From: Zancudomyces culisetae
Lineage: Eukaryota; Kickxellomycota; Harpellomycetes; Harpellales; Legeriomycetaceae
Reading direction: 5' to 3'
Assembly (NCBI GenBank): GCA_001969505.1
Contig: LSSK01000551.1
Span: forward strand, 1-23,331
Length of the DNA: 23,331 nucleotides
Part shown: positions 967 through 23,213 of the stretch, piece after piece
Position numbering within the stretch: position 1 is the first letter of the stretch
How the letters are laid out: every line of letters starts with the position of its first letter
Position numbers and translations under genes: made by a program
Notes under the pieces: generated by a model
What the model was told of the DNA's origin: nothing
Database searches by the model: none
The model's input: only the letters and a program-made list of their open reading frames with translations

Positions 967-3900
967 TTAGTTTAGCTTTTGTTTCTTGTTGTTATTTTTG
1001 TTGCTCTTCTTTTTGGTTTTGGTTTTGTTCTTGTTTTTGTTGTTCTTTTGAGAAGGAAGGGAACGCTTTCTGGAGTTAGAGGGGGTAGAAGTAGAGGTGG
1101 AAGGTTTGGTAAGCAAGGATAAAATGTTGTTAGAGTACTGGAGAACAGACGAGTTGTAGTTGTGTTGTTTCTGTTGTTGCTTTTCTTTGGCAAATGAGAG
1201 GAAAGACGTGATTGCGGATGACAAAGGAAGAGTGTCAAAGGAAGGAGAGGTTGCAGGTGAGGAAAAGAGAGGTTTTAGGATGAGGTAGAAATGTTTTAAA
1301 AAGTAGGAGATATGTAGGTTTGAAAGGTACTGGGAATCTGTGTTGGGAAGGGAAAAGTGTTTAGAGAAGAGAGATGAAAGGGACGAGACAAGAGTGGAGA
1401 GTGAAGTTGGGTTGATGGGCTGGTTGAGTTTAGATAGAGATGAGTAGAAGCGGAGCAACTCGGAGTATCTGAAGGATTTGGCGAGTGTGAAGGAAGAGTA
1501 AAAATCCAAGTATGGAGATAAAAATCCATCAAGAGTAGAAGAGAGATGAGGCGCTTTTTGGACTAGAGAAGTATAAAAGTCAAAAAGAACATTAGAGTTT
1601 TTGTTTGTAAAGTAGTCTACAATTGGAGGCTGGAGATTATCAAACAAGGATGGAGGAGAGGGGGAAGAAGGGAATTGGTTGATGCACACGGCGTAGAGGT
1701 TGGCCAGTGATTCGACGTGTTGTTTAGTGAGGGATGGTTTGGAGAGGGAAGACATTATTGTGGAGATGCATGTGGTGACGTCATCGAGGTTAGGCGATGC
1801 TTGTGAGGAAGAAAAGCTTGCCAGGCAGGAAAAGAATTTTGTAATGAGAGCCTGGTTGGGGTTTTTTTCTTTTTCTTTGAGTTTGGGAAGGAGAGGAAGA
1901 AGTTGGGAAATGAGATAGAAAGAGTGAGGGTTGATTTTGGTGGATTTGGGTGATTTGGGTGATGAAAGATAGAGAGAGACCAGATCAAGAACGCGGAGTT
2001 TGTAGTGGATTTGTATTTGTTGCAAGTGTTTTTTATTTGTTGCTGAGGCGTTTTTCTTTTGAAGCTTGAATAGTTCGGATAATTTGCTGTCGAATTGTAA
2101 CATTTGATCATCATCAAGCAACATTTCTTCCTCCTCCTCATCATCATCATCATCATCCTCATCATCGTTATTGTCGTCATCATCACCTTCTTCTTCTTCT
2201 TGATCCTCTTCTTCCTCTTCCTCTTCATCATCATCATCATCATCCTCTTCGTCATCTTCGCTCTCCTCATCTTCTTGATCCTCCTCATCATCGCCATCAA
2301 TATCCTCGCCGTCAATATCCTCGCCTTCATCTTCTTGCTCGACACTGGAATCAGTGCCCTTAATAGCAGACACCAGCTCATCAATTCCTTGTTTGCTTAT
2401 CTTACTGGTAATTTCCCTAAACACAAGCTGGATTGATGGTCGCAAAAAGGCTGTTTTACTGCTCAGCAAATCCACCAACACGGTAACTAGTTTATCGCTA
2501 TTGTTGATATTTTCTATAATTTCGTTGATTTCTGGATTCACTACATTATCCTCTTCATCCTCCTCCTCCTCCTCTTCTTCTTCTTCTTCTAGGAGATTCT
2601 GTTCCCCATCTAGTTTAGAGTCTACAAAATCTTGGATCCCCAGCATAAACACCAACTCCTTCACCCTCTTATCTCTACCGGCGTTTTCTTCATTCTCTTG
2701 CTTTCGCTGCAAAAAGTCGATTATAAACTGTGCCGAATTAATCTTTAGTCGTCTAGTTATATCTACCATCAGCTCCTCTTGAGCATTATTTCCGCTGGCA
2801 CTAACATTGGCATTTTTGTTGGCATTTCCTCTAGCCTTAACATTAAAACTTTTCATTAATGCACCTATTACGCTCAATATCTTTTCATAGCTACCATTTG
2901 CAACAAGCATGTCTATAACTTTAACCACAAAATCTTTGCTGTTATCCTGGGTCTGTTGGACCTTATCAACTCCAGCTGATCGCAACTGCATCTGTGCTTG
3001 GTGTAACACCTCCTCATTAGTCAGCTTAACCAGTAACTCTACTACGTGTGTTGGTATCTTTGGTTTCTCCGCCAAATCACACTGCATCTTTAACAACTCG
3101 CGTAAAATCACCATTCGTACCTTATCTCGGCCAACATTTTCATTGTTAACCTTGGGCTTGTTTTTGCCCTTATTTTTAATGTTCACTCCATTGTTATTCT
3201 GAACATTCGCAGTCTGTCCATTTAGTATCTGTTTTATCAAATGTCTGTTACTAATCTTGTCAAAATCAACCTCCTTGTTCAATTCCAATGCAATCAATAC
3301 TCCCAAATTCACCTCTCCATCCTTTTCGACATCGCTGCTCTCTACAAGTTCCTGTATTCTCTCTACGATTTTGTTTGCTATGCCATTCAGCTTACTCTTT
3401 TTATTTACCACTTGTCTGGCTAATGCGGCTGCTGTATTTTTTGTAAATATACTCTTACTCAGTTCTCTCATATTAACAGCCCCTGCGATTTTCCTTTTTT
3501 CACTATTCCCCTCCAACTCTAGACCCAAGTTCAAGTCCAATCCTGTATTTGATTCTGAATCAAGTTCTAAAACGTATTTTATCAACTGGAATCCCCAGAA
3601 TTTTCTTGTTGTAGTACTTGTTTCCATTCCAAAGTATCCCTCATCCACTACTGTTTTCCAGATATCATTAAACCCTACATCTTGGCCCTTTGTTCCCTTG
3701 CTGGCTCTCTTGTTACTGGTTCCAAAATCTTCAATGATTTTATACCACACTGAATGGAAATATCCGTGATGTGGCTCATACTCACTCCCAGCTCCATGAT
3801 CTGCATCCATATCTACATCCATATCCGCTCCCTCCTCTCCTCCTATAGGCATCTGCTTATTTGTCTCGATCAATAATTTACTCAATCTATCTATATTTCT

Positions 3901-4737
3901 CTTGTCAAACACATTTCCGCCTACCCACTCCTCATTTATCTTCACTTTATATACTTTGCTGTTTTTGGATTTTGATCCGCTTTCACGCTCTCTGAGTTTC
4001 AGCTGCTTGTCCATTTCCATATAAACCTTCAGCTCATCGCAGTTTCTAATCTTGCCTTCCTGTCCAAACACAATGCTGCTAATCACCTCAGCGACTTTTG
4101 CCAACTTTTCTTTCTGTTCTTTTTGGTCTCCACTCTTGCCACCATTGCTGAAGACAGATTCAAGTACTTTGCATATACCCTCATGTCCTGCTTCTCGAAG
4201 CCATTTTTTGTTCTCTCCCAACTCTTTCAGCTCCATTACTACCTCTTTTATATCCTCACTGGTTGTACTTGCTCTAGTCAGCAACCCACTTGCAATTACT
4301 GCAAATATCACAAACAATTTACCAAATATCTTGTCCCGGAGTTCTTGCCCACTCACACCGCCACTACTGCCGTTTGCTGTAGCGGCTTTGCTTTCTGTCA
4401 CGGTTTTCATAATTTCCATTATTACCCGTGTTGTTACATGCTGATTGTTTCGCAGAATCTCAATCAGAACCATACAAAATCCCTGTCTTGCTCCGTCCCG
4501 CGAACTTGTCATACCCTTCACCAATCGTTTGATCGCATATGCCACTTCGTTTGCACTCTGCTCGCTCAATTCGCTTTCAGTATATGCAACATTGTTCTTG
4601 TCACCATTTTGTTCACCCTTTTCCTCTTCGTATTGTTTTTGGATTTCGGCTAAGGCTAACACCAGGCCTTTCCCTGCCTTTATCCGCTTTTCTGCATTCA
4701 GATCGGCAAGATCCCAATAATAACCTAATGTTCCCAT
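967..4737 (-). CDS. POL5: Pol5/MYBBP1A family nucleolar protein (DNA polymerase phi)
   Basis: An intronless frame of 1256 residues starts at an ATG (4735-4737 on the complement). The family hallmarks are at the N-terminus: YYWDLADL at residues 6-13, and a helical repeat block at about 64-95 containing RLVKGMTSSRDGARQGF, the conserved 'RL..G..SsR..AR.GF' signature. A helical-repeat body follows to about residue 790. There is a short Glu run near 716-727, then a very long Asp/Glu tract at about 790-880. The segment after it is Ser/Pro/Leu-rich, and the last 50 or so residues are Lys/Asn-rich, which suits nuclear or nucleolar targeting. Despite the polymerase name, the family acts in rRNA synthesis and ribosome biogenesis (S. 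cerevisiae Pol5, human MYBBP1A). The length is within the family range of about 1000-1330. Several long frames on the opposite strand are shadows of this gene. Confidence 0.88.
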   Translation of the reverse strand: MGTLGYYWDLADLNAEKRIKAGKGLVLALAEIQKQYEEEKGEQNGDKNNVAYTESELSEQSANEVAYAIKRLVKGMTSSRDGARQGFCMVLIEILRNNQHVTTRVIMEIMKTVTESKAATANGSSGGVSGQELRDKIFGKLFVIFAVIASGLLTRASTTSEDIKEVVMELKELGENKKWLREAGHEGICKVLESVFSNGGKSGDQKEQKEKLAKVAEVISSIVFGQEGKIRNCDELKVYMEMDKQLKLRERESGSKSKNSKVYKVKINEEWVGGNVFDKRNIDRLSKLLIETNKQMPIGGEEGADMDVDMDADHGAGSEYEPHHGYFHSVWYKIIEDFGTSNKRASKGTKGQDVGFNDIWKTVVDEGYFGMETSTTTRKFWGFQLIKYVLELDSESNTGLDLNLGLELEGNSEKRKIAGAVNMRELSKSIFTKNTAAALARQVVNKKSKLNGIANKIVERIQELVESSDVEKDGEVNLGVLIALELNKEVDFDKISNRHLIKQILNGQTANVQNNNGVNIKNKGKNKPKVNNENVGRDKVRMVILRELLKMQCDLAEKPKIPTHVVELLVKLTNEEVLHQAQMQLRSAGVDKVQQTQDNSKDFVVKVIDMLVANGSYEKILSVIGALMKSFNVKARGNANKNANVSASGNNAQEELMVDITRRLKINSAQFIIDFLQRKQENEENAGRDKRVKELVFMLGIQDFVDSKLDGEQNLLEEEEEEEEEEDEEDNVVNPEINEIIENINNSDKLVTVLVDLLSSKTAFLRPSIQLVFREITSKISKQGIDELVSAIKGTDSSVEQEDEGEDIDGEDIDGDDEEDQEDEESEDDEEDDDDDDEEEEEEEDQEEEEGDDDDNNDDEDDDDDDEEEEEMLLDDDQMLQFDSKLSELFKLQKKNASATNKKHLQQIQIHYKLRVLDLVSLYLSSPKSPKSTKINPHSFYLISQLLPLLPKLKEKEKNPNQALITKFFSCLASFSSSQASPNLDDVTTCISTIMSSLSKPSLTKQHVESLANLYAVCINQFPSSPSPPSLFDNLQPPIVDYFTNKNSNVLFDFYTSLVQKAPHLSSTLDGFLSPYLDFYSSFTLAKSFRYSELLRFYSSLSKLNQPINPTSLSTLVSSLSSLFSKHFSLPNTDSQYLSNLHISYFLKHFYLILKPLFSSPATSPSFDTLPLSSAITSFLSFAKEKQQQKQHNYNSSVLQYSNNILSLLTKPSTSTSTPSNSRKRSLPSQKNNKNKNKTKTKKKSNKNNNKKQKLN
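2104..2340 (-). repeat. Trinucleotide-rich acidic tract in POL5
   Basis: Runs of TCA/TCC/TTC triplets on the plus strand encode Asp and Glu on the minus strand, giving an almost unbroken acidic domain of about 80 residues (about 799-878 of Pol5). A smaller run lies at about 2555-2590. Such runs are prone to slippage. Acidic tracts are typical of nucleolar proteins that contact basic ribosomal or histone proteins. Confidence 0.85.
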
Positions 4738-6280
4738 TTCCTATATTGGTGCTCTTTTTTTTGATATTACTCTATTTCTATGAAAACTAGCGGTAAAAAA
4801 AACTAATAAACTAAACTATCTAACTGGATGTAAACTTTACCACACTATTCAGTATTTGTATTGATATAAGTAATATACTTAATTATGTTCCTATTTACAA
4901 GTTATATTCTCTTTGCATTTAGTGCTTTGGTTTTATTTTTTTTGCAGTCTCAGCACTGTATATTCTTTACAATGTATTTTTTTTATTTTAAAAAAATTTT
5001 TTTTTTATTAATTATGATTTCTCGAATCAATCAATAGCTCGAAAAAATTTTTTATATCACAATTCTGTAAATTACAACATCAAAAAGAATGGCCAATTTC
5101 TGGAGAAAAAAAAACAAAAAATCGAGAATAATGGGTGGTGATTGAGAGAAAAGAGGAAAGAGGGTGATTGGTTTTTTTCTTTCAAAATCTCGATTCAACC
5201 AAAGGGAATTTTAACTATTGTTAAAAAGATGGAAAAGCCCCCACCCCATTCCACCACACACTCCCGCACACCCCCCCCATGAGGTTGCATATTTTCATCT
5301 TCATCCTGAAGCAAGTCTATCGAATTATGTTCATCTAAAAAAAAAAGTATTCATTTATACCACCTGTAATTTGTGCGTTCTTGTACATGCATTCCACACT
5401 TCCAAAGATCAAAAGATCGCTTGTGATAGTTATATTAAACCATGGCTTTTGAAAAATAAACAAAAGCAAACCTGCAGGTTCCTATCCAGGCCAAAAATTA
5501 GTGCAATTTCTGTTCAAGAAAAGCACAACTAGATCATATTCAATTGATCATATATTACACTCAAAAAAGTACATGAAAATAATAGTTTACCACAACACAC
5601 GCAAACTGGATAAATTATTTATAGACGCAGAGTTTCAAGACAAAATAGCGAAAAGCTTTATTATGCAAGCAAAGTAAAAATACAAAAAAGCCAAACTATT
5701 AAATTCTATTATTATGCATCTACATAAGAGTTGACCAACTGAGCATACATTATCAGGATGAGTTTCTCCAGATCTATGAATATACACACAGAGATACTTT
5801 AGAATATTGCTATTGTGATGACTGCAATCTGAGAGCAGATCCACGCTAATCAAAAGCGAGTGTTTGTTGAAGATAAATGATCAGAAAAGGATGTGGTAAG
5901 CAAAAGTTTATCAATCATAAGGATCAGTAGCAGAACTGACTGGTTTGGATTTCATCATTATCATCTTCAACAAGACCGCTCTTTTTGGCCTGGTTCGCCA
6001 GAATCCGTCTCCAAATTTAAAAAGCAATGAAACTTACAATCAAATCCAAGAACAGCGAATTAAAATCAGCATGCAACCCACAACCAAAAGTAATCAGAGT
6101 CGGCACAACATGACTTGTAAAGACAACTCTATCTTCCAGATTTGTGCAATTGACAACCTAGCAGCAATAACAATTTTGTTAATAATCAGTCTTGTTCAGA
6201 TAAAACAAAATAAAGTTTTCAAAATTTGGAGATAACCAAAAAAATACACAGATCAGATGGTGATGCATGTTGTTGATTGT

Positions 6281-7831: not shown

Positions 7832-7978
7832 TCACACGCTCAATTCCTCCCAGTTATTATTTTGGCAATAAAATTTTTTTTATTATTCGCTTTATCATAT
7901 TGTAGATTTTATATTGTAATCATACTACAAAGTAAAAACTGAAAAAACACAGAAAAAAAAGAAAAGCAATTAAGGAAA

Positions 7979-8275
7979 ATGTCTGCCACCCAAAACGCAA
8001 TTAGAAAAGTATCACCATTCTACCTACTCACAAGGTATGGAGCTCTTGGATTCGGTATAGCTTACGGATTCGTACACGCAAGAACTCTTCGCAAAGAAGC
8101 AGAGCACAAGAGAGATTTAGAAAGTTACAATAAGAAAGTCCAACTCGTCGAACTGGCCAAACAAGAATATTCTAAGAAGAACGTGGTTCAATCCAACTCT
8201 ACCACCTCCCAAGGTTCAGTCAATTTCGAGGATCCAAATTTCAATGCCGAAGAATGGGCCAAAACCCTTGCATAA
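7979..8275 (+). CDS. ATP21: Mitochondrial F1Fo ATP synthase subunit e
   Basis: A 98-residue intronless frame, close to the 96 residues of S. cerevisiae Atp21/Tim11. One short membrane segment at about residues 20-34 (RYGALGFGIAYGFVHAR) carries the GxxxG motif (Gly26 and Gly30) through which subunit e contacts subunit g and dimerises ATP synthase complexes in the inner membrane. It is followed by a charged coiled coil (about residues 35-68) with the family pattern 'Y..K..LVE.AK.EY.K'. The ATG at 7979 gives the usual family N-terminus, and an A-rich leader precedes it. Subunit e shapes cristae and is not needed for catalysis. The gene converges on LIP2. Confidence 0.88.
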   Translation: MSATQNAIRKVSPFYLLTRYGALGFGIAYGFVHARTLRKEAEHKRDLESYNKKVQLVELAKQEYSKKNVVQSNSTTSQGSVNFEDPNFNAEEWAKTLA

Positions 8276-8802: not shown

Positions 8803-10262
8803 TTAATCTAGATAACGTTTAATGAACTCAAAAGATTCAGGCGATATCGTCTCTAATGGCACAACACGCACATGAAAAGTGCTAGAAAAACACGACAAAA
8901 CATCATCAATGACTCTGGTTGTAGAAATATCAGTTATGATGCTGGCTGCACCCTCAATACCCCGGCCACTTTGCTCTGAAAAGGTGTATCCGAGCTCCTT
9001 GACCAAAGATGTCGCTGTTTTACCCACCAAGCCACAAGGTACGATCTTTCTAAACATTTCCAAGTCTGTCGAGCAGTTCAGTGCGATCCCATGTGATGTA
9101 ATGTATTTTTTTACATGACATCCTACATTCAGAGTTTGCGAGTTCGTTAGTTGTGTGATGTGTCAATACTCTGATATATCTCATCAACAATAAACATATT
9201 TTGGCCCAAAAAAAAGTAAAGTAAAGTAAAAAAGGAAACAAATAGACTAATAATCAAGGAATTACCTGTTGCCGCAATTTTAGTGGACTCTGAAGTCCAA
9301 ACACCTGGAAATCCACTCTGTTTAAAACTCGGTACCCCATATCTTTTGCATACTTCGATCACTGTATCTTCAAGTTTGTCTACATAACATCTAACGCCTA
9401 ACTGTTGAACATATGTTAAAGCCAAATTAGGCGGAATCCAATTTATAACCTCTCCTTCACTCGAACAAAAATATTTCTTCAACCATTATGAAGCATTCTC
9501 TTTGAATATCAGTATTGAACAATGACCTTTTGAGGACACACTTACCTTGAACTTTTTTAGATCGAGTATTGGGTATATTACCAACTGACCTGGCCCGTGG
9601 TATGTTATCTCCCCGCCCCTCGGTGCCTATTTTTGCATTTAACTCTTATTATTTAACTTTCTCGTTAATTTGTGGTCCTATACTGCCATCGATTTTTTTT
9701 CGTATATGAGGCGTAGTATAAGCCAAACCAATAATAAAAAGTACGAGAGAAGAGGAGGCGAGAACATATTTAAACAACCAGAATAAAACTAGAATACCTC
9801 ATAGTACTCCGCGCCGATTTTTGAAAACTCTTGCAAATCACTTTCTGACAGTTTTCCCCTGTTTCTAATGCCATTCGTGTAGACTGGATCGTGCTCAACA
9901 AACAGCAAAATCTCTGTTTTTGCCAGCTCGCTCTCTTTTTCGTTTGAAGTCCTTAACTTTACAATTTCAGCCTGTAAATCCAAGGCCTTTTTATATCCCA
10001 CCTTTCCCAAATCTATATACCCAACATTAATTCGCTCAACTCTGTTACGACTCAAACCACATGAATTACCGCTCTCTTTTGTTGTTGATTCTAACCTTTT
10101 GGGAATATCTAGTTTATTTACATTTTCTTTTAAATCCCACACTGAGCCTTGAATGTTTCTAGTGTGTATTCTTGCAATCTTTATTTTCAGGTTTGAGTTT
10201 CGATACATATGATTTCTCGCATTCTCCACAAATGAGCTTGAAATAATACTTCTCACCACCAT
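8803..10262 (-). CDS. LIP2: Mitochondrial octanoyl/lipoyl transferase (LipB family)
   Basis: My model has four exons on the complement: 10262-9798, 9626-9546, 9401-9266 and 9122-8803, with introns of 171, 144 and 143 nt. The join is 1002 nt, in frame, and encodes 333 residues, close to S. cerevisiae Lip2 (328). The enzyme moves an octanoyl group from acyl carrier protein to lipoyl domains such as the glycine cleavage H protein, the first step of lipoate synthesis. The N-terminus is Arg/Ser/Asn-rich, as in a mitochondrial presequence. Diagnostic motifs read across the junctions: EHDPVYTNG (exon 1), [14 protein letters not shown] (exon 2), the catalytic lysine in STKIAAT (Lys223, exon 3), and SHGIALN with the catalytic cysteine of VPCGLVG (Cys257, exon 4). 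The last intron has a good branch point (CAACTAAC). The acceptor of intron 2 at 9402 is the least certain junction, but it places LGVR directly after LKKFK, as in bacterial LipB. Confidence 0.9.
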
Positions 10263-12888: not shown

Positions 12889-15800
12889 CTATGCGTCAAT
12901 ATCCACATTTAGAACACCAGCGTTTTCGAGCTTGCTATCAGCAGTACCTCTAATTAGTGAATGTTGAATAGATACGTGTTAGTAATTTTTGTCCAAGAAA
13001 ACACAGCTTGCTATTATACCGTTCTATAGAGACAATACTGAAAAGTCCAACTATAAAATATTCCAAAAATTCTTACCTTTTGATTGTATTAGTATGATTA
13101 AGAACAGATGTGCGCAAACCCTTGAAGTATTTATCGTATTGAATCAGTGTAGTATTGTACGGCTTTAGCCTATATGGTGAACCTACGAATACAAGTTTAC
13201 ATTATACTTGTTTGGTTTTTTTTTTAAAGTAATAAAAGTTGTCAATGGTTAGCGGATACCATCGCGAGTTATTCTTATTTCAAATTTGTAAGATGAGTGT
13301 TGTTGCAATTACCCAAAATACCGGAAACAATAGGGATCGTAGAATCTATATAAACGGCATCATAAATTGGCTTTGAAGGTGGTGCATCCGGAGATCCCGT
13401 ATTTCCAATCAGTTGGATAAGTGGAATATTCCTTCCGTTCATAAACATGATATTCTATATGATTGAATGCATGTATATATATCACTTTGAGATTAAAAGG
13501 TAAACCTGGGGTCGTGATAAATAAAATAATAACAAAAATCAAGTGATTGATGGCCTCGTTTTACATAAGAGCTACAGTTACACTTACCTGCAATACCATT
13601 TGGCGTGATACATCGCAAGTTCTGAGAGATGAACCATCATAATGATCGGATTTCTTATATCGGTAAAACCCAACAGTGTAAAACCCAGCTGCTTCGAACT
13701 CGGTCCTTGCTTCGTTTTCAGATTTCGGGCTTTGGTCATTCTACATGTCAATCGGTACAAATTAAGTAAAGTTGAAACAATTTAACTCGAAGAAAGGTAG
13801 AGATGCCTTACATCGTCTTCCGATTCATCCATTTCACCTGGATATGCCAGAGTAACATACAATATTTTTTCTAAAGGGTCATAGCACCCTCCAAGGAAAC
13901 CCTGTACACAGTCACCGTATGTGCTTGCATGAAACGCTACAAAATCCTATCAGATATATATGACTTCATGCTATAATTTGCCATTTTTAGCAGAAAGTAG
14001 TGGTGGATAATATAAACCAGGTTGATGAAGCGAATGTACCACAGCCGCACATACTCCTTGCAAATATAAACTTATAGCTACTCACCATTACAGCGGAATC
14101 TATATACAATGAAAATTTACGAGGGTTTTCTTCTTCAAAATCCTTTACCATCACGTGGTACTTGTCTATACAAACATCAGATAGTAAAGCGAATATAATC
14201 ATATGATAAAAATAGTTGACCCTTTTTAAGAGTAAAAGATCAACAACAACGGTAAAAATCACAATGTATGAGTTATTCTGATATAGCATACTACAAATAC
14301 CAACAGGAAAAAAAAGCTCTCGCCATTCTGTATTACCTTTTTTCTCAACGATTATATCAGGTACTCCGGGCGACGAGTCAACAGATGACCGCGACGGCGG
14401 CGACAATGGTGCTGGCCTACTGTCTCGCTCCTTCTTGAAGTCACTACTCAATCTAAAACAAGCCCAAGCTTGCCTATCCTCGCCAGGTTTCTTGAATCCA
14501 ATATGTTTTTTACACATACAATAGATGGCACAGTAACAATTGGGGTGTGCAATGCAAACATTTTTTTCCTTTTTCCTACATTTAACGTTTTATGGATAAG
14601 TTATTCAACTATATTAGATAGACCATGTGCTTTGGAACTCGGTGCCTTTAATAGTTAAACTTACTTGAGCTTCTCAGATATGGGCATACCATTATTTTTC
14701 TTTGCTGTAGAATCTCTTAATCGGGTGCTGCGTCTGCTCGATGTAGTAGCTGAATCTGCCGCTGAGTACCTCGGTTCTTCAGGCGTGGTGGTGCCACTCT
14801 CTTCAAGCCTGGCTTTTTTAGTAGTCCGCTCCATAGCAGGCGGCTGCTTATTAGATGACGAGGGAAAATATCTCTTTGGGTACACTCCTTTGTTTATGGC
14901 TTCAATCTTTTCCAGCCAAGTGTGTACTCTGCCTATTGCATTTACATCTCCACACCCCACAAGCCCAAGTCTTGACGAAATCTTTGTTAGATACTCTGGC
15001 TTTGTCTCCTCCCATCGCATCAATATAAAGTTTCTGATTTTGAAATATCTATCTGCTGTCTTGTTTAGCTTGTTTGTAAAGAATTCCTTGTGTACTGATT
15101 TCTCATGATCTGAAATTAACTCCGGGTCCAATACGTACTATTTAGTATATATGAAAACATGATAATTTAACTACAAAATCTGACTAATTACAATCAATGT
15201 TGCAAATATCATACCTTTCTATTTCCTTCGACATAATGATGAACACTTAATGTATGCTTTTTTCCCCCCTCACTCGACTTTTCTTGCTTGGGTTGTACTA
15301 TATTCGGTAAATTATTCGCGCTTTCATCCATGTTGGGAGCTCCTGTCTTATCATTACCTTTGTTTCTTGTAATTAACCGCAGTCTCCTGGGCGATGCCGA
15401 GTGAGAGTCATCTAATCGACCTTGAATATTTTCCTTTTCGCCATTCGTTTCCACCATAGCCACTTGGATTCCTCCTGCAACCATTTTATTACTCTCAACC
15501 TCCGTTGTGCTTCCACTAACCCCTACTCCCTCACTACTACCACTGCTCATTTCAGTGATATCCTTCACACCCACCTTGGATACACCTTTTTCTTCGTTCG
15601 CATCTTCCTTTTCCCCACCTTTTAGTGGGCTAGCATTATTTCTCTCACTATCCTCAAAACTATTACTTGTTTTATCTATTATTCTGTCTTTTAATGTCAT
15701 TTTTGTCGTTGACTTTGACTTTTTTATGTCTTCAAGATACGGAAACCGCTCTGGTGTATTAGGAACCGTTTTTTCAGCTCTCAATTCTCCCTTCTCTACA

Positions 15801-16039
15801 CACGTATGTTGTTCGATATTTTGTGTGCTTTTCTGCTTAATATCACAGTCCATATTCGCGCAATCTCCTGATACAATTCCTTCTTTTTTTTCACCGTTCA
15901 TCTCCATGGACGTGTTATCGTGTTTTTTTCTGTTTTCTTGCCCTTGGTTCTTTTTCTTTGCGCTATTATCCAAAGTATCTGATACGTTATTCTCAGCTAT
16001 ATTGAGCCTAAGTTTTAGTCTACCTACACCCTTAAACAT
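12889..16039 (-). CDS. MYSM1-like SWIRM-MPN protein with degenerate JAMM site
   Basis: My model has nine exons on the complement: 16039-15215, 15137-14665, 14575-14301, 14165-14086, 13946-13812, 13740-13588, 13454-13313, 13182-13077 and 12949-12889. All eight introns (71-139 nt) are GT-AG, and the 2250-nt join encodes 749 residues. Residues 1-275 are low-complexity and charged. Residues 278-359 form a SWIRM domain (YFKIRNFIL, then CGDVNAIGRVHTWLE), closest in pattern to MYSM1. A basic Ser/Thr-rich linker follows, then a Cys/His cluster at 440-457. Residues about 540-720 form an MPN domain (GFLGGCYD, YTVGFYRYKK, GSPYRLKPYN). Human MYSM1 removes ubiquitin from histone H2A using a JAMM metal site. 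Here the catalytic Glu is Cys564, the two His are Arg623 and Lys625, and only the Asp (639) remains. A non-catalytic chromatin protein is inferred. No SANT domain, which MYSM1 has, was seen. Fungal Fun19/Laf proteins share only SWIRM. Confidence 0.82.
14520..14575 (-). other. Cys/His-rich segment, possible zinc-binding motif
   Basis: The beginning of exon 3 of the SWIRM-MPN gene encodes CIAHPNCYCAIYCMCKKH, which has five Cys and two His in 18 residues (440-457), with another Cys at 472. This could fold around zinc between the SWIRM and MPN domains. It depends on the acceptor at 14576-14577 (TGTAG); a different acceptor would remove it. The frame and phase fit this choice, and one later AG that I tested runs into a stop. 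Confidence 0.45.
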
Positions 16040-18532: not shown

Positions 18533-20266
18533 TCAATCGGTCAAGTTAACAATAGGTATATCGGGAGTTAATTGGGTGTCATCGATTGTAGGAGCGCTAT
18601 ACCTAGCTTCTGCATCGACACGTCTTCTCCATGCAACATACCCGAGCCTCAAGTTTTCTTCAACTTCCCTTGGCCTTTCTATCCCAGCTATATCAGATAT
18701 CCAGCTAGCAATATTTTCTGCAATGGTGTAATTAGATGATGCAAAGTCCCTGGTTATTAAACATGTCATTGTTGAGTGGTTGGGAAGGATATTGTACTTT
18801 TCTGTTATCATAAGATCGACGTAGTCAAGTGCAAGGTCATACCTCCTGAGTAAAACAAGATACTTGATCAAGCTATTGAATGTGGTAACGTTTGGTAATA
18901 CCAGATGGCTCCTAGGGTTCATAACGCCTAGTTTGGCCAGGTGTTTGCTGTCATCTAAAGTATCCATGGAATTGAATATCTCTATAGCTTTATCTACGTT
19001 CCCGTTTAAAAGATACACCTTTATTAGTGAGGCGTAGATTTCCGCCCGCCCGCTATTGGAAAACTTTGAAAAATCAAGCTTGACTTCATTACTTTCTTCA
19101 AGGCTTATCCATGGATTCTCCTCGACATTCTTGGCATCACTGTTCCCATTGAAAAATTTACCAAATCCATTTTTCTTTGTAAATGCATCCCTTAGGGAGC
19201 TCAAATTTAGAATTCCATCCTCTTTCCTGTTAACTTCACCAATACTTATACCATTTACTGGGGATGGGCGCTGAGAGTTATCAAACAGCTTTTGTGCAAC
19301 GTTTACGTTCCCTATTACACCATAAGCAAAAATCATATGCGCTACAACCCTCGGTGTTTTACTTATCCCCTTTGACTCCATTTCGTTCCAAATTTCAAAC
19401 AGTCTTGCAATTCTCTTGCTAAAATCGTTGCTTTTAACGATTTTCCCGTCAAAAAATGAAATGCTGCCGGAAAGTGCCCTGTGTGCTAGAATGGATTCGT
19501 AAATAATGTAGCTAAATCTGTCAATGTGACCTCCATGATTCTTTATGCTGTTCCAAAAGTGATCTGCCTTTTCGTAAGCCCTAATCAAGGAGTAAAAGTA
19601 CAGCATATGGCTTATAATTCTGGGCTCATATATACCTGTGAGGTGCTCCTTTTGCCGAGAAATCGTTTTTATTTCGCTTAAAGTTATTCCAAATATTTCA
19701 TCGCCACTTTTGCCTCCACTGATACTGGTATTGCTATTTTTTTCAAATTTGTTAGATTTGATTCCGAAAACGCTATCCTTAAGTAGGGATTTTGTATAAT
19801 TATCGCTAGTAAGGCTCTCCAAATCACTAATGTTCTGCAATATATATTCAAGCCTCTCCTCGTATTCAATATCGATTCTATGATTTCTCTCCTTCAATTT
19901 AGTGATATTCACTTTTAATAGCATCTCAACATGATCCTCTCTAGACAGTATAACCTTTGTACTTTGTGATCCATATCGCATTATTGTCAAGTAGGATTTC
20001 CAAGAAGTTTCCACATCATTAGATCTCAAATCGTTCTTCAGATTTTTTAGCAGTACATCGATTTCGTTCAGGGTGTTAACATTCCCTACTTTTGTGGCTT
20101 CCTCAATAGTAGCATTGTTATCCACACCAGTGTATAAACTTCTGCAACGACACAGCAGGTTTTGCTTTCGAGTTTGTGCTATTCCAAGATAGCTTCGTAA
20201 CATAGAACTTGTTTGACCCTTTGCATTCAAAGCAAGTAGTCTGAGGATTCCGGTCGCCATTCTCAT
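18533..20266 (-). CDS. Mitochondrial PPR-like helical-repeat protein
   Basis: An intronless frame of 577 residues opens at ATG, with a second ATG two codons later. The first 46 or so residues are rich in Arg, Leu and Ser and almost free of acid (RSYLGIAQTRKQNLLCR, then RSLYTGV), a typical matrix presequence. Paired-helix repeats of PPR type appear at about 219-300 (MLYFYSLIRAYEKADHFW), 306-330 (VVAHMIFAYGVIGNVNVAQK), 408-435 (IYASLIKVYLLNGNVDKAIE) and 460-500 (TTFNSLIKYLVLLRRYDLAL). Fungal mitochondrial PPR proteins bind specific organellar transcripts and guide their processing, stability or translation. The repeats are degenerate, as is usual in yeasts, so I cannot match it to a named factor or an RNA target. 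An interior loop at about 335-400 is probably disordered. Confidence 0.72.
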   Translation of the reverse strand: MRMATGILRLLALNAKGQTSSMLRSYLGIAQTRKQNLLCRCRSLYTGVDNNATIEEATKVGNVNTLNEIDVLLKNLKNDLRSNDVETSWKSYLTIMRYGSQSTKVILSREDHVEMLLKVNITKLKERNHRIDIEYEERLEYILQNISDLESLTSDNYTKSLLKDSVFGIKSNKFEKNSNTSISGGKSGDEIFGITLSEIKTISRQKEHLTGIYEPRIISHMLYFYSLIRAYEKADHFWNSIKNHGGHIDRFSYIIYESILAHRALSGSISFFDGKIVKSNDFSKRIARLFEIWNEMESKGISKTPRVVAHMIFAYGVIGNVNVAQKLFDNSQRPSPVNGISIGEVNRKEDGILNLSSLRDAFTKKNGFGKFFNGNSDAKNVEENPWISLEESNEVKLDFSKFSNSGRAEIYASLIKVYLLNGNVDKAIEIFNSMDTLDDSKHLAKLGVMNPRSHLVLPNVTTFNSLIKYLVLLRRYDLALDYVDLMITEKYNILPNHSTMTCLITRDFASSNYTIAENIASWISDIAGIERPREVEENLRLGYVAWRRRVDAEARYSAPTIDDTQLTPDIPIVNLTD

Positions 20267-21876
20267 TTCCTGTTCTCTACCCTTATTTCCCTTACTTTTC
20301 CTCTAACAACAAAGAAAGCTGGAGCGTGACTATGTAATTTTTCAAATTACTACTAGTATCTTTCCAAATGAAAAGAATGCCTTTTACACCAAGAAGAAAA
20401 AAAGATAAAGGTGTATATAAAACACACAGATAAAACAAGCTGGCTGATTTAGAAAAGATAAATGTTTATGAATTAAAAGTACTTAAAGGCAACTACTTTA
20501 CACGCTGGTCAACCTTCTTATGTTGCTGTGGTATCTTGTGTATCTGTTCCTCTTCTTGAAAACTCTGCTATAAATTATTTTTTTCTCACTATCTTTTGAA
20601 ACTCTCCTTGTTAGTTAATTGAAATTTGCCAGAAAATTCGGGAAAGATGAGCAGATTTAATTGGTATAGCAAGTTCAAATTACCCAAAGTAAATAAAATG
20701 TTCTTTATTTGGTTTGTAATCCCTCCTTATGGCTGATAAAAAAAAATTTTTTTTTTTTTACAAATTCAAGATTAGCAACAACAAAAACATATTTTTGTAA
20801 AAATAAACATTGGTAATAAATGGGAATAGTACAAGCTGTTATGAGATGTAAATGTGAGACTACGAACTTGATGTTTTGAACACATTTAGAAGTAATAAAC
20901 TTGCTTATAAAAAGTCAATATCCTCACATACACAATATCCAGATGCCTTAGCCAACTCGCTGTATAGTAATAACTAGCCTTTGAGAATCCCAGTGCACTC
21001 AAACCTCTCCGTCTTAAAAAAAGGAGAGCATGTATTTTTGGCAAAGTCGCATTGTGTTAAACATTGCTTTATTCATATCTGCTTCCTTCCTCCTTCGTCT
21101 TTGGGTTTGTGATGAACATATGCAATCTAACACATTGTAAACTGCTTGCCTGGCCAAGCATACCTGTGAAGCCCTAACACCAGTGTACCAAAAACTATGT
21201 ACCCTCTCTAAGGTCAAGCTGAGCAAACTTAACATTAAGATACCTAATGGCGTGGTTCGAATATATTATTCATGCGAAAAGAGCCACAGAAAAGTTCAAC
21301 CAGCTAACGTATATAAAAAAAATTGTGTGTTTTTGAAAAGATATAAAAACATCAAGTATAGGAAAAGGATACAAAACCAGAGATTATTGTGTAGCTTTGA
21401 ATATCTAAACTATCCACAGTATTCATCCGTATACCAAGGGGAAATTATACCTCTAATGCATCTTTTTTATTATTTCAAACTCTTTTGCTGGCTCTGAATA
21501 TATACTTCTATCAATATTTACTTTGTAACCACTTTGCCTTTACTGTGATTTCTGTTTATTTAGGTCTTATGAAAGCCTTACGTAGGTACAACTACATTCA
21601 AAATGAAAAAATAAATTAAAAATCAGCGTTCTCACCCAATGACGTAATATGGCAGCTTTATACAGCTAATTTTTTGTGTTGGTTTAGCTTGCTAATGCAA
21701 ATAAAATAAATAGTATTGAAAATTGAATTCCTTTGTTATAAAACAAAACACCGTTACCATTTTCACCACACGATTTGCTTTATTTTTTAACAAATAGATA
21801 TAAGAATCGTAGCTCTAGAAATCTAAATATAAGATTTAAGTAACTCAGTGAAAGTAAAAACAGCATAAAATAAAAA
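20267..21876. other. Divergent intergenic region between PPR gene and RPN11
   Basis: These 1.6 kb should contain both divergent promoters. No convincing gene was found; the longest frame (21183-21497, plus strand) opens with GTG and has no early ATG. An A9T13 tract lies at 20738-20759. A CRE/ATF-like octamer, TGACGTAA, is at 21640-21647, about 230 bp before the RPN11 start. I found no PACE element (GGTGGCAAA), the usual Rpn4 site of S. cerevisiae proteasome genes. Confidence 0.5.
21640..21647 (+). promoter_or_regulatory. CRE/ATF-like TGACGTAA box upstream of RPN11
   Basis: TGACGTAA matches the bZIP (CRE/ATF) core. It lies about 230 bp upstream of the RPN11 start. A single 8-mer is weak evidence. 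Confidence 0.25.
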
Positions 21877-23213
21877 ATGGATTTGTCGAGATTACTGGGA
21901 ATGTCAGCCGGCGGGTTGGGATCAGGTATAGATGTAGAAACTAGTGATACCTCTGAAGTTATCCATATTTCGTCATTGGCTCTGCTGAAGGTAAATTTAC
22001 TTGCTTATTATATTTGGTTGTCTGTTTTACATTTTGCAGATTTTTGTTTAAAACGAGGAAATGAGTTTGACTTACCATTTATTTGCATTTATGAAAACTA
22101 TCCCTATAGATGCTCAAACATGGTAAGCTACGATATAAAACTTATACAAATAGAAATTCTTTGAGAAGGGGCTGTGTGTAAAGTGACTAGAGATTTTCTC
22201 ATTTCTTTAAAAAATAAACAGGTCGAGCTGGTGTTCCGATGGAAGTAATGGGGCTGATGCTGGGTGAGTTTGTTGATAAATATACTATACAGGTTGTCGA
22301 TGTATTTGCAATGCCGCAAAGTGGTACAGGAGTCTCAGTTGAGGCGATTGATGAAGCATACCAAGCAGCAATGATGGAAATGCTCAAACAAACGGGAAGG
22401 TATGTATTGTTTTTTCCCCCAAGATTTCACATTTCTTGAAGAGAGTGCGTAAAAAATGGTGAGAAAAAAATTGGGCTTTTTTGAATAGAGGTGAATCCGT
22501 TGTGGGGTGGTACCACTCACATCCAGGTTTCGGGTGCTGGCTTTCCAGCGTTGACATAAATACTCAACAAGCATTTGAGCGGTTGAACCCCCGGGCGGTT
22601 GCCGTCGTGGTCGATCCTATCCAGTCAGTTAAAGGAAAGGTTGTGATTGATGCATTCCGATTGATAGATCCTGGACTCGCTATGGCTGGACAAGAGCCTC
22701 GCCAAACTACGACAAACTATGGATTTTTAAACAAGCCAAACATTCAGGTATTGCGGATAATTTTATATTTAATGCTATATATCGAGATACATCCATTACA
22801 ATTGCATTTGGACCTTTAGTATAAATTTTTTTGTAAATACGTATCTATTCTAGGCGCTAATCCACGGCTTGAACAGACACTACTACTCCATTATCATTGA
22901 TTATCGAAAAAATAAACTGGAGGAAAAAATGTTGTTAAATCTCAATAAAAAGGAATGGACAAGTGGCTTGACACTGACGAACTTTGAAACCCACTGCTCC
23001 CATAACGAATCTTCTGTTAAAAAAATGCTTTCTCTTGCTGAGAGTTACTATAAAGAGACGACTGATGAATCAAAATTGACTCCAGAACAATTAAAAACTA
23101 GACATGTGGGCCGACAGGATCCAAAACGACATTTGGAAGAAACTGTTGAAAATGTCATGTGTGACAACCTGGTACAAGCTGCTGCTACCGCCATAGATCA
23201 GAAGGTCTTGTAA
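21877..23213 (+). CDS. RPN11: 26S proteasome lid deubiquitinase Rpn11
   Basis: My model has five exons: 21877-21990, 22110-22122, 22222-22399, 22489-22747 and 22854-23213, with introns of 119, 99, 89 and 106 nt. The join is 924 nt and encodes 307 residues (306 in S. cerevisiae). Rpn11 is the JAMM metalloprotease that cuts ubiquitin chains from substrates as they enter the 26S proteasome. The catalytic set is intact: Glu50 in [12 protein letters not shown], and His111, His113 and Asp124 in [17 protein letters not shown]. The highly conserved block [20 protein letters not shown] and the C-terminal [17 protein letters not shown] are also present, while the extreme N- and C-termini diverge. Exon 2 is only 13 nt but is needed to supply the conserved MLKHG after ALLK. 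The start is the ATG at 21877. CTG codons at invariant leucines show the standard genetic code. Confidence 0.96.
22110..22122 (+). other. RPN11: 13-nt microexon of RPN11
   Basis: ATGCTCAAACATG is flanked by CCCTATAG and GTAAGC. It encodes MLKH plus the first base of the following glycine codon. Exon 1 ends in phase 0 and exon 3 starts GTCGAGCT, so the spliced product reads [19 protein letters not shown], exactly the conserved Rpn11 order. Skipping it would drop 13 nt and break the frame. Confidence 0.92.

Follow-up and report, generated by a model that had tools for sequence, protein, structure and literature searches.

Can a protein that keeps the architecture of a histone deubiquitinase, but not its catalytic residues, still be of use to the cell? 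This question is raised by a gene (gene A) in a 23,331-nucleotide stretch of DNA, here called the window (positions 1 to 23,331 of the forward strand of contig LSSK01000551.1, NCBI GenBank assembly GCA_001969505.1). A preliminary description of the gene had spoken of a yeast. We rejected this origin because the source is Zancudomyces culisetae (Kickxellomycotina, Harpellales), an insect-gut fungus described as living in aquatic insect larvae as an obligate symbiont (PMC12611240); according to this 2025 genome paper, transcriptomic data were also produced. Our reading, to which we give a probability of about 0.7, is that gene A would be a Harpellales descendant of a MYSM1-type (SANT-)SWIRM-MPN deubiquitinase of early-diverging fungi, and that it would act as a non-catalytic nuclear adaptor. 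Its lineage would have lost the SANT domain, the catalytic Glu and the pair of His ligands, with the SWIRM domain and the MPN fold retained. The SWIRM domain would dock on a chromatin complex, while the inactive MPN domain, MPN(-), would be a protein-binding module in the manner of Csn6, Rpn8 and Abraxas. The candidate partner is an active SANT-MPN protein of the same genome (gene B).

Architecture and kinship of gene A

Gene A lies on the minus strand of the window. As first proposed, nine exons separated by GT..AG introns join in frame, here into 737 residues, and the limits of the gene at 12889 and 16039 are correct. All exons below are from splicing.

12889..16039 (-): gene A, SWIRM plus predicted catalytically dead MPN, 737 residues, from in-frame splicing; annotated protein P0001
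15215..16039 (-): exon 1, residues 1-275, N-terminus with no recognised domain
14665..15137 (-): exon 2
14889..15137 (-): SWIRM domain, residues 276-358, MYSM1 subtype (Pfam PF04433, PDB 2dce, Foldseek)
14337..14575 (-): exon 3
14458..14556 (-): Cys-rich module, residues 440-472 (pattern Cx5CxCx3CxCx2H)
13118..14154 (-): MPN(-) domain, residues 517-704, across exons 4-8 (hhalign; AlphaFold2 (AF2) and PDB comparison)
14086..14165 (-): exon 4
13812..13946 (-): exon 5
13908..13910 (-): Cys552 at the catalytic Glu position (profile alignments)
13588..13740 (-): exon 6
13654..13662 (-): Arg611-Tyr612-Lys613 at the His-Ser-His position (profile alignments)
13612..13614 (-): Asp627, aligned with the JAMM Asp (profile alignments)
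13313..13454 (-): exon 7
13077..13182 (-): exon 8, which aligns with orthologue P0002
12889..12949 (-): exon 9, with the stop

The annotated Z. culisetae protein P0001 (706 residues; 96% identity over 89% of the searched region) is spliced differently at the exon 4/5 junction, and its end falls in intron 7. Orthologues align through both the start of exon 5 (VMDFVAFHA in Zancudomyces, LLNFIKIHA in Furculomyces P0002, LVGFLKFHF in Smittium P0003) and exon 8 (SPYRLKPYN against IPHKVEFIT in P0002), and this alignment favours the predicted nine-exon model over the NCBI one. The assembly holds three copies of the region (C19, C27 and C409). The copies on C19 (99.93% identity over 4,271 bases) and C409 (99.72% over 5,001) depart from the coding sequence of gene A at 2 and 3 sites, every one of them in exon 1 and too few for a selection test; because they are near-identical, we take them as redundant or allelic rather than as paralogues.

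The SWIRM domain (Pfam PF04433, E 1.5e-16) is of the MYSM1 subtype. Among solved structures its best match is the SWIRM domain of human KIAA1915 (PDB 2dce, E 1.7e-22), which we take to be MYSM1, with weaker matches to SMARCC2 (4.8e-06) and Swi3 (0.00021). Consistent with this, Foldseek matches the predicted P0001 model to 2dce (E 4.4e-07). A SANT/Myb domain gave no Pfam match in gene A at E<=1 and none in its orthologues at E<=0.1. Between SWIRM and MPN, residues 440-472 form the stretch Cx5CxCx3CxCx2H...WxC, which matches no Pfam family and looks like a zinc-finger-like, putatively zinc-binding module. In the survey of 244 proteins described below, Cx5CxCx3CxCx2H occurs in two, P0001 and Furculomyces P0002; the full pattern is missing from the Smittium protein.

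The MPN domain is too diverged for a Pfam match. In hhalign it matches the MPN domain of MYSM1-type proteins with a probability of 98.9 (E 1.7e-17) and that of the family of gene B (B-type) with E 1.9e-13, so that by profile it appears closest to the MYSM1 type, of these two families compared (MPN(-) families lay outside the comparison). In the PDB comparison, AF2 models of A match CSN6 (4qft) as well as chains from the CfBRCC36-KIAA0157 complex; the predicted structures thus have the MPN fold that marks an MPN(-) pseudo-deubiquitinase. The proposed order of SWIRM followed by MPN, and the kinship with MYSM1, are both borne out by these matches, although the preliminary description overlooked the SANT domain of MYSM1 and the SANT-MPN relative in the same genome. 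Gene A is therefore like MYSM1 (2A-DUB) and its fungal (SANT-)SWIRM-MPN relatives in SWIRM subtype, domain order and MPN profile. It differs from MYSM1 in having no detected SANT domain, JAMM Glu or HxH, and in its Cys-rich linker and an MPN domain that escapes Pfam.

The MPN active site in three species

Profile alignments place other residues at the catalytic positions in all three species with gene A. The Glu is replaced by Cys552 in Zancudomyces, Asn in Furculomyces and Lys in Smittium, and His-Ser-His by Arg-Tyr-Lys, Arg-Ser-Leu and Gly-Pro-Ile, respectively. At the JAMM Asp position, after a three-residue insertion, stand Asp627, Glu and Glu. Thus the Glu and both His zinc ligands are lost in 3/3 species. 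The residues first named for Z. culisetae (Cys, Arg-Tyr-Lys and a kept Asp) were the right ones, numbered 12 too high for Cys552 and residues 611-613, and the losses prove common to two relatives, a point the preliminary description had left for checking. STG.QCEMDP, a MYSM1-family segment ahead of the conserved Ser-Glu, is not conserved in A either. A new metal site at Cys552 was considered and rejected, the Cys not being conserved in the orthologues. The sequence of A predicts no H2A deubiquitinase activity.

To place these losses, we surveyed 244 proteins (P0001-P0244): P0001-P0005 came from the search with gene A, P0005-P0124 are MYSM1-type (the best 120 of 1025 matches) and P0125-P0244 are B-type (the best 120 of 409). 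The Glu context and HxH...S..D were recognised by pattern in 237 of them, and in three more HxH...S..D was recognised by pattern and the Glu by eye. The remaining four, P0001-P0004, are all gene A, two of them (P0003 and P0004) being models from one Smittium species; none matches E...HxH...S..D. The 240/244 proteins with an intact site are a biased frequency, since those outside gene A entered the set through an active query or through their similarity to one.

Adaptor, partner, decay or reader

We hold A to be a pseudo-deubiquitinase adaptor because inactive MPN proteins pair with active ones elsewhere and because change of the JAMM Asp alone is reported to abolish MYSM1 activity (PMC9825392). 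Pairing of MPN(+) with MPN(-) is described as established for CSN5/6, RPN11/8 and BRCC36/KIAA0157, in the last of which the inactive partner can switch the active one on (PMC4579573). Human MPN(-) members are given as Abraxas, Abro1, CSN6, eIF3f and Rpn8 (PMC9313428). Like the MPN(-) subunits Csn6, Rpn8, eIF3f, Abraxas and KIAA0157/Abro1, A has an MPN fold from which the zinc-binding His pair is absent. We know of no described MPN(-) pseudo-deubiquitinase with a SWIRM domain. MPND, an animal protein without SWIRM, also belongs to the MPN proteins, and its binding to DNA and to histones has been reported; unlike A, it has a RAMA domain. A probably works as a scaffold rather than as an enzyme, and we infer the chromatin role, scaffold or reader, that was first suggested for it.

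Several points weigh against this adaptor reading. Catalytically dead MYSM1 in mice is reported to resemble the knockout (PMC9825392), so that no strong role of MYSM1 beyond catalysis is known. The evidence comes from three species only, and the Smittium protein exists in two differing gene models, P0003 and P0004. The alignments behind both AF2 models include active MYSM1-type proteins. When 41 MPN domains were placed in a tree (3 from A, 20 of 120 MYSM1-type and 18 of 120 B-type), A formed one group and B another, but the tree does not place A relative to MYSM1 because the end branches of A are long, from 3.4 to 9.6. Finally, the fast divergence of MPN(-) fits slow decay too.

A special case of the adaptor reading is a divided MYSM1, in which A, with SWIRM and MPN(-), pairs with B, which carries SANT and catalysis, much as in BRCC36-Abraxas/KIAA0157. 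For this there is a complementary protein in the same genome.

L014 1144-3654 (-): gene B, active SANT-MPN protein without SWIRM, contigs C385 and C553

Gene B, on C385, runs as one uninterrupted reading frame of 836 residues, with an equally scoring copy on C553. Its JAMM is intact, and Pfam matches SANT (E 6.3e-10) and JAB (E 1.2e-12) in it but, at E<=0.1, not SWIRM. Its family (P0125-P0244) is like A in its MYSM1-like MPN and occurs in the same genome and order, and is unlike A in its active JAMM, its SANT domain and its absent SWIRM. Furculomyces likewise has both, A as P0002 and B as P0126. The domains of A and B therefore complement each other, and the MPN(+)/MPN(-) pairs cited above are precedents. 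However, this argument is weakened by the MYSM1-type proteins themselves, since 19/120 of those listed have no SANT in the Pfam column (101/120 have it), so that its absence is not special to A. B also did not arise as the other half of A. Its family is old: the SHAQK form of SANT is in 120/120 listed B-type and 0/120 listed MYSM1-type members, and the SWIRM core motif in 0/120 and, by strict pattern, 98/120, respectively. Both types stand side by side in Calcarisporiella (P0020, P0135), Radiomyces (P0048, P0127) and Phycomyces nitens. Since other fungi carry both, we reject a recent origin of B from A; we think that it was not a single gene that was divided in Harpellales but one of two pre-existing relatives that lost SANT and catalysis. 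Pairing of A with B is a possible but tentative proposal; a division of MYSM1 work in Harpellales between a SWIRM pseudo-deubiquitinase A and an active SANT deubiquitinase B that dimerise via their MPN domains is doubtful.

The listed B-type members are mostly zygomycete fungi by name, and one from Smittium culicis carries the database name 'Histone H2A deubiquitinase MYSM1'. The B proteins P0126 (Furculomyces boomerangus, 975 residues) and P0224 (Smittium angustum, 890 residues) share 879 letters in order, differing within that order by one residue and two stretches. Such near-identity across genera is odd, and one of the two genomes is possibly mislabelled or contaminated. Other MPN proteins of the Z. 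culisetae genome, found as six-frame Pfam matches, are presumably Rpn11, Csn5, Rpn8, eIF3f and eIF3h; no Csn6 was among the matches.

Decay of the catalytic half under relaxed selection, with SWIRM alone still mattering, would also leave a dead site. Among the three A species, SWIRM identity is 61-69% and MPN(-) identity 29-31% for the full domain and 31-34% for its core, the residues at the Glu and HxH positions vary, and the A branches of the MPN tree are very long. For comparison, Zancudomyces, Furculomyces and Smittium culicis share 55-70% identity in the active MPN core of B, the Smittium species not being the same in the A and B comparisons. Against decay, the frame is open across nine exons, and in the other two species the annotated models span the MPN domain. 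Local alignment scores of the MPN domains lie 29-39 standard deviations above shuffles, beyond those of the N-termini (-0.6 to 0.1), which are not alignable above shuffles, and the SWIRM-MPN linker (1.0 to 9.4). Of the MPN columns that do not vary in A, eleven also reach at least 85% conservation across 15 MYSM1-type proteins; 19 more are invariant in A only, and part of this invariance, seen in three sequences, reflects shared ancestry. Low identity together with scores far above shuffles suggests that MPN(-) has been freed from the enzyme's constraint and not abandoned, in line with the constraint that the preliminary description had wished to see examined. We therefore consider decay unlikely.

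Alternatively, MPN(-) may act as a reader that binds ubiquitin, for example on H2A, uncut. A descends from a deubiquitinase family, and the ordinary H2A of this genome ends in ...LLPTKKGKKEGESQEM, with a tail, LLPTKKGKK, that keeps lysines after LLP, near the usual ubiquitin site, making an H2A ubiquitin site possible. However, the active-site positions and the STG.QCEMDP segment are not conserved in A, and a reader of this kind seems quite unlikely. Beside the ordinary H2A genes is a divergent H2A-like protein of ~150 residues, whose N-terminus is rich in proline and whose tail, LLPENSKQC, is short (loci L021 on C346 and L022 on C354, plus another match on C659). When the genome was searched for RAWUL/PRC1 there was no match, nor did the positive control give one.

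That the gene model misleads, other splicing restoring the catalytic site or separating the domains, is very improbable: the NCBI model P0001 does differ at two places, but orthologues under other gene models show equal losses, and when a restored catalytic set was looked for, no minus-strand frame of gene A held HxH...S..D, the only two HxH strings lying outside the MPN exons.

Neighbouring genes and what gene A means

The rest of the window includes, about 6 kb from gene A, a proteasomal JAMM enzyme.

967-4740 (-): DNA polymerase phi-type protein
7943-8275 (+): ATP synthase subunit e
8803-9485 (-): pieces with weak lipoyl ligase matches, under cut-off
18533-20302 (-): pentatricopeptide repeat (PPR) protein
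22227-23213 (+): Rpn11, with HSHP site (Pfam JAB, RPN11_C)

A SWIRM-MPN pseudo-deubiquitinase or a fungal MYSM1 was not found in the titles and abstract openings searched, mostly of non-subscription papers, and the main text of the Harpellales genome paper (PMC5954228) mentions none of SWIRM, MYSM, JAB or histone. Dead MPN domains are familiar; the literature searched yielded no MYSM1-type SWIRM-MPN protein with one. The database name of P0001, 'Histone H2A deubiquitinase MYSM1', is misleading for gene A.

Going by the organism names of the 120 listed MYSM1-type proteins, at least one of which is from a rodent, SWIRM-MPN proteins with an intact JAMM, mostly with SANT, are widespread among chytrids and Mucoromycota, and Glomeromycota have ones without a listed SANT. 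A 2020 review is cited as placing MYSM1 orthologues in vertebrates only (PMC7216186). Given the fungal proteins, the MYSM1-type enzyme is probably far older than this, and these intact fungal relatives may matter as much as the dead A.

If A and B do dimerise, they would add another type to the known MPN(+)/MPN(-) pairs, one directed to chromatin and drawn from the MYSM1 lineage. Gene A is a natural experiment on MYSM1 function without catalysis: in the mouse the dead protein is reported to resemble the knockout, yet in this fungal lineage a dead copy has been kept in three genera.
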